This document shows, piece by piece, positions 11,850 through 50,189 of a DNA stretch of 64,000 nucleotides. The notes under the pieces are model-generated. The model was not told the DNA's origin, searched no databases, and saw only the letters and a program-made list of their open reading frames with translations. Numbering within the stretch: the first letter of the stretch is position 1; each line of letters begins with the position of its first letter. A program made the position numbers and the translations under genes. The stretch comes from Bacillota bacterium (GTDB taxonomy: Bacteria; Bacillota; Limnochordia; Darwinibacteriales; JAAYFS01), in contig JAAYFS010000015.1 in NCBI GenBank assembly GCA_012728115.1, positions 1 to 64,000 of the forward strand, in the 5' to 3' direction.

Positions 11850-12050
11850 AATGCCGTGTGTCCCCCACCATGCCGCTATTTGCTGACCTGAATGAACCTG
11901 CTCTCCAGCAGGTGGGTATCTTCCTACTGCTTTCTTGCTTCCACTCAAAGTGGCATGCATTCCACCAGTAGAGTCAGATTCCCTTTGTTATGGTGTTGGC
12001 TCATAACAAAGCCAGCTTGATCACGAGCACAGCAGGGCCTCCGTCTGCTT
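11850..12050 (-). ncRNA. ssrS: 6S RNA (SsrS/BsrA-like) candidate
   Basis: Structured non-coding ~200-nt tract ending at a strong terminator, located between aspS and tcdA, the position of B. subtilis 6S-1 RNA (bsrA, aspS-yrvM); extended imperfect long-hairpin character (GCC..TGTG / CACACGGC; TTTGTTATG / CATAACAAA). Confidence 0.75.
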
Positions 12051-46172: not shown

Positions 46173-46219
46173 AAAAATGCACTTAGGAGTAGATCACGGA
46201 TCATACTCCTAAGTGCATT
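46173..46219 (-). terminator. Intrinsic terminator of the pflB-pflA/crp operon
   Basis: AATGCACTTAGGAGTA ... TACTCCTAAGTGCATT 16-bp perfect stem and minus-strand T-run, 35 bp after the fusion gene stop. Confidence 0.88.
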
Positions 46220-46253
46220 CATCCTCTAATAAATCTATGCTTAATGTTGCAGT

Positions 46254-47756
46254 CTAAAGGACATAACTTTCTAATGCTTCAAGGTCCTTAACAATAATAA
46301 CCTTATTACCTACCAACTCAATATATCCTAGTTCTTTAAACTCCCCTAGTTTTCTAGTTATGGTTTCGCGCCTTAAACCAGAATAGTTTCCTAATTCTTC
46401 TCGGTTCATTGACAACTCTAACCTAATACCCTCATCGATCTCGACTCCGATTCGTTTTACAAGTTTGAGCAATAAACCAGCAGTTTTCATTGAAGCATTA
46501 CTGGTAGAAAGTCTTTGAATCAAATCTTCGGCCCATCGAATCCTCTCAAAGCTTTTTACTAATACACTTCTTAAAACTACTGGCGAATCATAGAAGTATC
46601 TGTCAAAAGTGACTTTCGGAATGGCAACCACCTTGCAATCTGTAAGTGCTTGCCCAACATACCGATAAGGTGTTTCAACTAAGAGATTTAATCCCCCAAC
46701 AAAATCACCATCACGATAAATGTAAAAGATCTGCTCTTCACCATCGATGGTATTATTGAATATTTTCATTTGCCCTTTATAAATAAGGTACATAAAATCG
46801 GGTGAATCGCCAGTCTTAAATATATAATCTCCAGCTTTAATGTTCGACAATATCACTTGATTCAAAACATCTTCCACATCATCTTTATCTACATCGCTTA
46901 ACAGGGGCAGTTTTTTTAGCTGCGACAGCATTTCAGCTCGTTCTTCCTCTGAAGCCATCTCCCTATCTTTTAATAGCTTATAATGCTCTTGCTTTTTTAT
47001 TTCATTCTCTTTTCTTTCTTGACGCAAACTCTCCGCAAAGAGTTTATTCGCCAAAATCTCAAAGTCCTTGGCTTTTTCCGTATCCATAGGTTCTACTCCC
47101 TCTAATCGATAGGGTATCCCTAACTCGTGATATTTTTTGACACCTGAAGTATGGTAAGGTAGAATTTCTATTCGATCGACACGATGGTTAATAGGCTTTA
47201 TGGTCTGAACCAAGCCTTTCATTGCTTGTTCATTGTCAGTAAAACCAGGCACCATTACATGACGAATCCAAACCTGACCTTGGAAACCATAGGAATCTAG
47301 GTTGGTAATAAAGTCTAGGTAGGTATCAAAACCGTTGATAGTTGTTAATTCTTCAAAAGATTCGCTATCAAAAGCCTTAACATCGAGAATTAGAGTATCA
47401 ACCAATGGAAGTATTTTCGGATAGTAGGTGGGATTACCAAACCCAGAGGTGTCTATACATATATTATAACCTTCTTGCTTAAGAATTTCCAATGTATTAT
47501 ATAGAAACTCTCCTTGCAACAAAGGCTCTCCTCCAGAAAAAGTTACCCCACCTTCAGCCCCATAATAAGGTTTATATCGTCTAACGATCTCGAGCACTCT
47601 TTGGGGTGTTATTTCCTGGCCTCCCACTCGTTTGAGAGTATCTGGATTGTGGCAGAAAGCGCATCTTAGAGGGCAACCCTGGAGGAAAAATACTGTTCTA
47701 GTTCCTGGTCCATCTACTAACCCCATTGTTTCGATTGAATGTAGGAAGCCTTTCAT
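46254..47756 (-). CDS. Fusion: pyruvate formate-lyase activating enzyme (radical SAM) + Crp/Fnr-family transcriptional regulator
   Basis: Residues 1-~245: GLVDGPGTRTVFFLQGCPLRCAFCHNPDT, GGVTFSGGEPLLQ, IDTSGF, WIRHVMVPGFTD (PflA). Residues ~278-500: cNMP-binding-like barrel and HTH LSMNREELGNYSGLRRETITRKLGEFKELGYIELVGNKVIIV (Crp/Fnr). One uninterrupted frame. Confidence 0.93.
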   Translation of the reverse strand: MKGFLHSIETMGLVDGPGTRTVFFLQGCPLRCAFCHNPDTLKRVGGQEITPQRVLEIVRRYKPYYGAEGGVTFSGGEPLLQGEFLYNTLEILKQEGYNICIDTSGFGNPTYYPKILPLVDTLILDVKAFDSESFEELTTINGFDTYLDFITNLDSYGFQGQVWIRHVMVPGFTDNEQAMKGLVQTIKPINHRVDRIEILPYHTSGVKKYHELGIPYRLEGVEPMDTEKAKDFEILANKLFAESLRQERKENEIKKQEHYKLLKDREMASEEERAEMLSQLKKLPLLSDVDKDDVEDVLNQVILSNIKAGDYIFKTGDSPDFMYLIYKGQMKIFNNTIDGEEQIFYIYRDGDFVGGLNLLVETPYRYVGQALTDCKVVAIPKVTFDRYFYDSPVVLRSVLVKSFERIRWAEDLIQRLSTSNASMKTAGLLLKLVKRIGVEIDEGIRLELSMNREELGNYSGLRRETITRKLGEFKELGYIELVGNKVIIVKDLEALESYVL

Positions 47757-47782: not shown

Positions 47783-50062
47783 TTAAACAAATTCATGGAA
47801 GGTTCGATTGATTACATCGAGTTGATGTTCTCGATTAAGTTGATTGAATCGAACTGCATATCCAGAAACTCGAATAGTTAGATTTGGATATTTCTCTGGA
47901 TTTTCCATAGCTTCTAGCAGAAGTTCCTTATCCATCACGTTGACGTTTAAGTGGAAAGCATCTTGGTTGAAGTAGCCATCTAAAATATTTGTTAGATTGG
48001 TTACTCGTTCTTCTAAATTCTTTCCTAAAGCGGAAGGAATGATCGAAAAAGTATTCGAAATTCCGTCTTGGTTTACTCCTTTATATGGCAGTTTTGCCAC
48101 TGAATTTAAAGAGGCAAGAGCACCTGATTGATCTGCCCCATTCATTGGATTTGCTCCTGGCGCAAAGGGTTCGCCCTTCTTGCGTCCATCAGGAGTAGTA
48201 CCTGTCTTCTTACCATAAACCACATTAGAAGTAATGGTTAGGAGTGAGAGAGTGTGTTCTGCATCGCGATACGCAGGTATCTTCCTTAAGGCTTCCATAA
48301 AGTACTCGCTAACCTTAATCGCAATCTCATCTGCCCGATCATCATCATTGCCATAGCGCGGGAAGCTACCCTCAACTTCAAAATCTACTGCAATTCCTGC
48401 TTCATTTCTAATTGGTCTTACTTTTGCGTACTTTATCGCTGATAGAGAATCCGCTACAATTGAGATTCCTGCTACCCCGAAAGCGATAAATCTGTGTACG
48501 ATCGGATCGTGAAGGGCCATTTGGCTTGCTTCATAAGCATATTTATCATGCATGTAATGAATGGTGTTCATCGTTTCAACATAGATTTTCGCTAGCTTAT
48601 CCATAACCTTTTTGAATGATTCAAGCACAGTCTCATAATCTAAAACTTCATCGGTTATTGGTTCGATTCCAGGGATAACAGTAACATATTCCCCTTTGTT
48701 TTCATACTTTTTTATCTCATCTACTCCACCATTAATCGCGTAGAGTAATGCTTTAGCAAGGTTTGCCCGAGCGCCAAAATATTGCATTTCCTTACCGACT
48801 CTCATCGCGGATACGCAGCATGCAATTGCGTAATCATCTCCGTAGATCGGACGCATTAGATCATCGTTTTCGTATTGAATCGATGCGGTTTTAATACTCA
48901 TTAAAGAGCAGTATTCTTTAAACTCTCTTGGTAATTTATCTGACCATAATACTGTCATATTTGGTTCAGGTGAGGTACCCAGATTGATCAGTGTGTGTAA
49001 AAACCGATAAGCTGTCTTAGTGACTAATGGTCTTCCATCTTCACCAACACCACCGATGGATTCGGTAACCCAGGTTGGATCGCCAGCGAACAATTCATCA
49101 TATTCTGGAGTTCTAAGATGTCTAACCAAGCGAAGTTTAATCACCAATTGGTCGATCAATTCTTGAGCAGTCTTTTCATCGATTAAACTTAACGCCAAAT
49201 CTCTTTGGATATAGATATCAAGAAAAGCGGTGTTGCGGCCAAAACTCATCGCTGCCCCATTGTTCTCCTTAACAGCAGCGAGATACCCGAAATATAACCA
49301 TTGCACTGCTTCATGAGCATTTCGGGCAGGTCTGCCAATATCATAGCCATATTTTGCTGCCATAGATTTTATCTGGTCAAGGGCGCGAATTTGTTCCGAA
49401 AATTCCTCTCTTAACCTGATGGTTTCTTCAGTTGCTGGCGCATCATAATTGTCTTTATCTTTAATTCTCATTTCCTTCAAATAATCAATTCCATAAAGTG
49501 CGACACGGCGGTAATCGCCGATAATTCTACCTCTGCCATAAGCATCAGGTAAACCCGTGAGTAATCCTACCGAACGGACTGTTCGCATTTCTTTGGTATA
49601 GGCATCGAAAACGCCTTGGTTGTGAGACTTCCGATACTCATTAAATTTCTTTTCCATATCCGGATCCATTTCAAGACCGTAGGCATCCAGTGCATTTTTC
49701 ACCATCCTAAAACCGCCATATGGATTCATAATTCTTTTTAATGGCGCATCGGTTTGGAGTCCAACGATCAACTCTCTATCTTTGTCTATATAACCTGGTA
49801 GGAAATTATCAATTCCACTGAAACGTTCTAGATCGACACTGATCGTTTTATTCCTTACCTCGTTTTGGATCATTTCATTTACTTCATCCCAGAGTTTAAG
49901 AGTATTCTCTGAAGCTCCTTCCAGGAAACTTTCATCACCATAATAAGGTTCATAGTTGGCCTGAATAAAGTCTCTCACATCGATCCTTTCCGACCAACGA
50001 CCAGGTTTAAAGCCTGTCCAAGCTTCCGCCATCTCTTTGCGGTCAAATAGATTCTCTCTCAT
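47783..50062 (-). CDS. pflB: Formate C-acetyltransferase (pyruvate formate-lyase)
   Basis: Catalytic Cys pair [18 protein letters not shown]; glycyl-radical motif [30 protein letters not shown]. Confidence 0.97.
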
Positions 50063-50146: not shown

Positions 50147-50152
50147 ATTATA
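50147..50152 (-). promoter_or_regulatory. Candidate -10 box for pflB
   Basis: TATAAT on the minus strand (CAAACTTATAATAAAG); hexamer 17 bp upstream is CAGCGT, a poor -35. Confidence 0.6.
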
Positions 50153-50173: not shown

Positions 50174-50189
50174 TGTGACCTAAATCACT
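50174..50189 (-). promoter_or_regulatory. Candidate Crp-type operator upstream of pflB
   Basis: TGTGA-CCTAAA-TCACT (plus strand), 9/10 to TGTGA-N6-TCACA; centre 50181.5 = -41.5 relative to predicted +1 at 50140. Confidence 0.65.

Follow-up and report, generated by a model that had tools for sequence, protein, structure and literature searches.

A pflB-pflA::crp operon joins a predicted activase and a Crp-type regulator in one polypeptide

The window, by which we mean the whole 64,000-nt stretch of DNA analysed here, carries on its minus strand an operon whose first gene is pflB (47783..50062), encoding the glycyl radical enzyme pyruvate formate-lyase; its product passes the formate C-acetyltransferase equivalog TIGR01255 (1195.7 bits). 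After a gap of 26 bp comes pflA::crp (46254..47756, minus strand), a single, uninterrupted ATG-to-stop frame of 500 codons with a GAGGG Shine-Dalgarno sequence just before its ATG. The plus strand across the same interval contains many stops. A terminator follows on the minus strand (46175..46220), recognised by folding as a long, near-perfect hairpin with a U-run (-42.7 kcal/mol, z -5.2, 141 nt folded). The first-pass annotation had described a single 500-codon frame with a PflA module, a linker and a complete Crp/Fnr module, lying 26 bp downstream of pflB and ending at a strong terminator, and this description was borne out on the minus strand. Elsewhere the window encodes a 6S RNA (11858-12041, minus strand; RF00013, 94.2 bits).

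The fused protein matched Radical_SAM (residues 24-176), Fer4_12 (14-121), cNMP_binding (305-387) and HTH_Crp_2 (426-497), all above the Pfam gathering scores. Its PflA module (residues 1-232; 47061..47756) also passes the NCBIfam PflA equivalog TIGR02493, at 243.5 bits over residues 5-232 against a cut-off of 231.75. The nearest solved structure is that of E. coli PFL-AE (PDB 3c8f/3cb8; TIGR02493), with which this half shares about 34% identity over 243 aligned columns, the radical SAM fold, the CxxxCxxC motif and a gene position directly 3' of pflB. The cluster-binding motif, CPLRCAFC in the fused protein (47652..47675), supplies Cys28, Cys32 and Cys35. These cysteines are invariant among 23 aligned fusions, as are S74, G75 and G76 of the SGGE SAM motif, while E77 is nearly so. 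From the family and the intact residues we infer that the PflA half is a pyruvate formate-lyase activase. Apart from an NrdG-like protein, no second PflA-like activase was matched in the same genome.

A charged, fast-evolving linker, mostly helical by prediction (residues 233-282; 46911..47060), leads to the Crp-type effector domain and dimer helix (residues 283-420; 46497..46910), which match PF00027 and carry a conserved EQIFYIYRDGDFVGGLNLL in the alignment. The C-terminus is a Crp-type winged helix-turn-helix (HTH; residues 426-497; 46266..46481; PF13545, PF00325). Within it, RETITR of the recognition helix (residues 463-468; 46353..46370) aligns with RETVGR (180-185) of E. coli CRP.

The fusion recurs in independently assembled genomes

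We searched 40 relatives together with the genome of the window. Full-length frames without an internal stop were found in 19 genomes of the order, the window's own included; those of the relatives are 74-81% identical to the window copy, and further copies are pieces cut at contig ends. The first-pass annotation had proposed looking for the fusion in related genomes, its absence from all close relatives counting against it. The fusion or contig-end pieces of it were found in 24 of the 37 genomes of the same order, and in none of the remaining 36 genomes of the class. The bifunctional architecture that it had described is therefore real and conserved.

Distant fused copies emerged when genomes were scanned with the Crp half and when profiles were searched around distant matches: they lie in Clostridia bacterium DTU065 (L068), a Gallicola MAG (L067), a Christensenellaceae MAG (L070) and G485. 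Many more occur among relatives of Mageeibacillus sp. UBA5442, one of which (G700) is a genome in a single contig of 1.81 Mb. One further copy lies in a 6.8-Mb MAG labelled Chloroflexota (L062); this fused operon is nested among the copies of the window's order, by transfer or misbinning. Wherever enough upstream sequence is available, pflB precedes the fused gene. One fused copy (L049:107-952, G036) has a 609-residue frame, in which an apparent in-frame insert breaks the regulator match before the last 35 residues. No match was found in viral contigs scanned with the regulator of the Mageeibacillus UBA5442 locus (L069), and searches of open-licence papers on the fusion, its parts and its operon returned no description of the fusion.

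An assembly or sequencing artefact could in principle have joined two genes, and a few genomes do have separate tandem genes (L069, L095, L151, L152). Against this, the stop-free full frame recurs in many independently assembled genomes, on contigs as long as 1.13 Mb and 1.81 Mb, and we regard an artefact as ruled out, its probability being negligible.

Promoters of crp-linked pflB genes carry a GTGA-N6-TCAC site at -41.5

We compared the regions upstream of pflB at 38 loci with a linked crp gene (33 fused, 4 separate tandem, 1 convergent). The core GTGA-N6-TCAC was present at 37 of them, comprising every fused and every tandem locus, and was absent from the sole convergent locus (L155). In the window the predicted operator GTGATTTAGGTCAC (50175..50188, minus strand) lies 22 bp before the -10 box TATAAT (50147..50152, minus strand), which places its centre at -41.5 if the -10 box is taken to begin at -12. 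No TTGACA-like -35 hexamer is paired with this -10 box. Across the 37 sites the eight core bases and the outer G (TCACNG) are invariant and position 5 is T in 33. The distance from the core to a TATAAT-like box is 22 bp in nearly all, 21 in four and 23 in one. By mononucleotide shuffling, the chance of the core in a 400-bp region is about 0.5%. In class II CRP- and FNR-dependent promoters the activator site is centred at -41.5, and by its sequence the pflB promoter has this class II activator geometry.

As controls we took the promoters of seven pflB genes from the same class that have no crp linked to them; these genes belong to another PflB subclade, and one has just 184 bp upstream. None of the seven showed the operator at this spacing (Fisher exact p about 2e-7 against the crp-linked loci, ignoring the relatedness of the genomes). 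Six lacked the core altogether; in the seventh (L189) it occurs twice in Rex-like form, and the nearer site lies downstream of a TATAAT. The association of a class II-type GTGA-N6-TCAC site with crp-linked pflB promoters is a new observation.

Genome-wide, a stricter form of the pattern was found in 22 of 24 genomes with the fusion and in 6 of 17 others. The extra strict matches inspected in relatives lie in coding sequence, except for a second pflB copy in G020. This copy (L174, G020:C121), on a separate contig, has a promoter with the operator and a truncated pflB, and is either a duplicate or a sign of strain mixture. The genome of the window has just five GTGAYN4RTCAC sites, roughly the background of a reversed-pattern control; one is the pfl promoter and two are inside genes. 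With loose sites at control level and the inspected extra strict sites coding apart from the second pflB copy, a wide regulon was set aside.

One site in this genome, GTGATGAATATCAC (L160:1501-1514; G000:C4:4489-4502), lies 3 bp past a TATAAT and just upstream of porG-porD-porA, encoding pyruvate:ferredoxin oxidoreductase, in a repressor-like position at an enzyme that competes with PFL. We treat it as a lead only, because comparable, Rex-like sites are present in por promoters of relatives that lack the fusion. No close homologue of this PorG was found in the fused relatives searched, and repression of the por operon by the fusion was set aside on these two grounds. An intergenic site, GTGATTAAGATCAC (L161:1501-1514; G000:C22:25486-25499), lies upstream of an Xaa-Pro peptidase-like gene, 22 nt 5' of TAATAA.

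The regulator half keeps the DNA-reading residues of CRP and a distinct effector pocket

In E. coli CRP, R180, E181 and R185 of RETVGR read the half-site TGTGA (PMC11253593). The fused proteins have RETITR at 463-468, with R463, E464, T465, T467 and R468 invariant, so that the recognition helix carries the GTGA-reading residues of CRP. The match predicts a GTGA half-site, as the promoters show. The first-pass annotation had suggested that the Crp half regulates its own pflB operon; with these residues and an operator in 37 of 38 crp-linked promoters, nearly always at -41.5, this is now very probable. Because the HTH is nearly invariant among the fusions, the Crp half does not appear to have decayed.

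The pocket motif (E/D)Q(I/L)-YIY--(G)DF(V/I)GG-N-L----Y-Y is common to the fused and tandem members and to most of the stand-alone proteins closely related to them, and its segment VGGLNLLVETPYRYVGQAL is by eye unlike that of CRP. Because the motif does not differ between fused and stand-alone proteins, the regulator probably responds to a signal of its own that does not depend on the fusion. The four cluster cysteines of FNR are absent from the regulator, C374 being the sole cysteine in residues 233-500, and oxygen sensing by the Crp half through FNR-type cysteines was ruled out on this ground.

Both halves are under purifying selection and the linker is variable

In pairs with an estimable dS, dN/dS was about 0.05-0.09 for the PflA half and about 0.015-0.03 for the Crp half, values indicating purifying selection on both halves, the second being the more strongly constrained. 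In most pairs the linker changes faster; its length ranges from about 44 to 72 residues across clades, and its sequence differs too. An AlphaFold2 model of the fused protein (pLDDT 78.7, pTM 0.56; relative placement of the halves unreliable) predicts a single helix, 226-264, made up of the C-terminal helix of PflA and its continuation in the linker. CRP proteins were the top Foldseek matches, alongside PFL-AE 3c8f.

An internal start in the linker could yield a free Crp regulator beside the fusion, with the regulator acting alone. We scanned every linker for such starts against synonymous shuffles. In two copies (L143, L147) the linker reads AAGGAGGTAACC...ATG, with a perfect Shine-Dalgarno sequence (AAGGAGGT) shortly 5' of a junction ATG in the same frame (dG -12.6), and the L070 junction has a GTG start (dG -9.1). 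The starts in L143 and L147 nevertheless fell below significance (fractions 0.105 and 0.145), the best start in the window is weak and at chance level (dG -5.7, fraction 0.655), and nothing was seen in most copies of the window's clade. For that clade a free Crp protein was accordingly rejected, and two products are improbable for the fusion as a whole. The Shine-Dalgarno sequence and ATG of L143 and L147 are possibly a relic of a separate crp start, or the start of a second product.

Unfused relatives suggest an older pflB-pflA-crp operon

In three genomes, G414 (L095), G670 (L151) and G676 (L152), pflB, pflA and crp are separate neighbours. In Mageeibacillus UBA5442 (L069), pflA ends in TAG TAG and crp has its own AGGAGG and a GTG start. 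In the tree of the regulator half the fused copies group together, and the state changes twice; overall support for the fused clade is moderate (90/78), and L095 falls outside. L069 is probably a re-split gene because it is nested, with strong support, among the fused copies. The simplest reading is that neighbouring genes of an older pflB-pflA-crp operon fused once, that the fusion was transferred between lineages and that it was split once later.

The pflB of Mageeibacillus UBA5442 (L069:1920-4190) has two in-frame stops (TAG, TAA), each at a tyrosine of its relatives, reflecting decay, assembly error or recoding. Stand-alone close paralogs of the regulator were found away from pfl at L153, L156, L157 and L158; the genomes of L156-L158 carry the fusion as well as the separate paralog.

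A proposed role for the fusion

We propose that the fusion probably serves its own pfl operon in two ways, as a dedicated activator of its transcription and as the activase of its product. This reading is favoured because of the operator at -41.5 in crp-linked pflB promoters, the lack of that arrangement in the seven controls and the RETITR match. The C-terminal Crp half would bind GTGA-N6-TCAC in place of a -35 box at the pflB promoter and, once bound, would turn on the pflB-pflA::crp operon, itself included, while the N-terminal half would activate PflB. A small ligand occupying the effector pocket of the Crp half would most likely govern DNA binding. Adjacent crp probably joined pflA within the older operon, and the main effect of the fusion would be to hold activase, regulator and substrate at a fixed ratio and to keep the three linked during transfer of the operon, not to act as a strict mechanical switch. 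As a caveat, other Crp/Fnr proteins of the same genomes could read the pflB site.

The fusion could alternatively be a moonlighting regulator gated by state, as the first-pass annotation had suggested for DNA binding. Whether the Crp half can dimerise or bind DNA would then depend on the activase half, be it on the cluster, on SAM or on engagement of inactive PflB, so that the need for activation would feed back on pfl transcription. The covalent joining has been retained across diverse lineages, the predicted helix is continuous from PflA into the linker, and a Crp dimer would be expected to bring two activase domains towards dimeric PflB. Yet the linker varies in length and sequence among clades, and the predicted placement of the domains is uncertain (pTM 0.56). 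Unfused tandem versions retain the same promoter site, stand-alone members keep the effector-pocket motif, and L069 has kept the operator although its genes are split again. We therefore consider such gating unlikely. A self-sensing activase, whose Crp half would be gated by the O2-sensitive cluster, SAM or unactivated PflB in the activase half, and in which pflB transcription would be set by the PflB still needing activation, seems rather unlikely too; if true, a transcription factor would here take its own protein substrate as effector.

It is also conceivable, if distinctly doubtful, that the site is read by another Crp/Fnr protein or by Rex, with the fused Crp half acting elsewhere or decayed. 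These genomes do contain additional Crp/Fnr proteins, and the Rex consensus, TTGTGAA-N4-TTCACAA, shares core and spacing with the site, Rex-like versions of which occur at L189 and in por promoters. The pfl site, however, is GTGAT..RTCAC with A-rich flanks, not TTGTGAA, and its fixed -41.5 placement with no -35 box is activator geometry; on these two counts Rex was judged an unlikely reader. The site moreover tracks linked crp genes, and the near-invariant HTH speaks against decay.

Relation to known systems and significance

The PflA proteins known to us are all single-domain; unlike them, the fusion bears a complete transcription factor. With Crp/Fnr regulators such as CRP, FNR, MtbCRP and GlxR it shares the effector domain, dimer helix, winged HTH, RETxxR and a GTGA-N6-TCAC site at the class II position, but it is without the cluster cysteines of FNR, and its effector pocket differs in sequence from that of CRP. 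It is joined to an enzyme of its predicted target operon and appears to be a local regulator, not a global one.

PutA combines a flavoenzyme with a DNA-binding domain and acts as a repressor. Trigger enzymes and PutA have been named in the context of single-target regulators (PMC8249747). Like them, the fusion is predicted to hold a pathway enzyme and a regulator of the same operon in one polypeptide, here a protein-activating radical enzyme with a predicted activator rather than a flavoenzyme repressor. As to DNA binding that depends on the substrate or redox state of the enzyme, the variable linkers and the unfused versions with the same site lean indirectly against strict coupling in the fusion.

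As a way of joining enzyme and regulator at the pyruvate node, the fusion would be new; it occurs in several Bacillota groups of fermenting anaerobes, many of them from anaerobic digesters. It would form a compact autoregulatory module with a defined predicted operator, brings to light a Crp subfamily whose effector pocket awaits characterisation, and lets one ask whether transcription can read the activation state of a glycyl radical enzyme.
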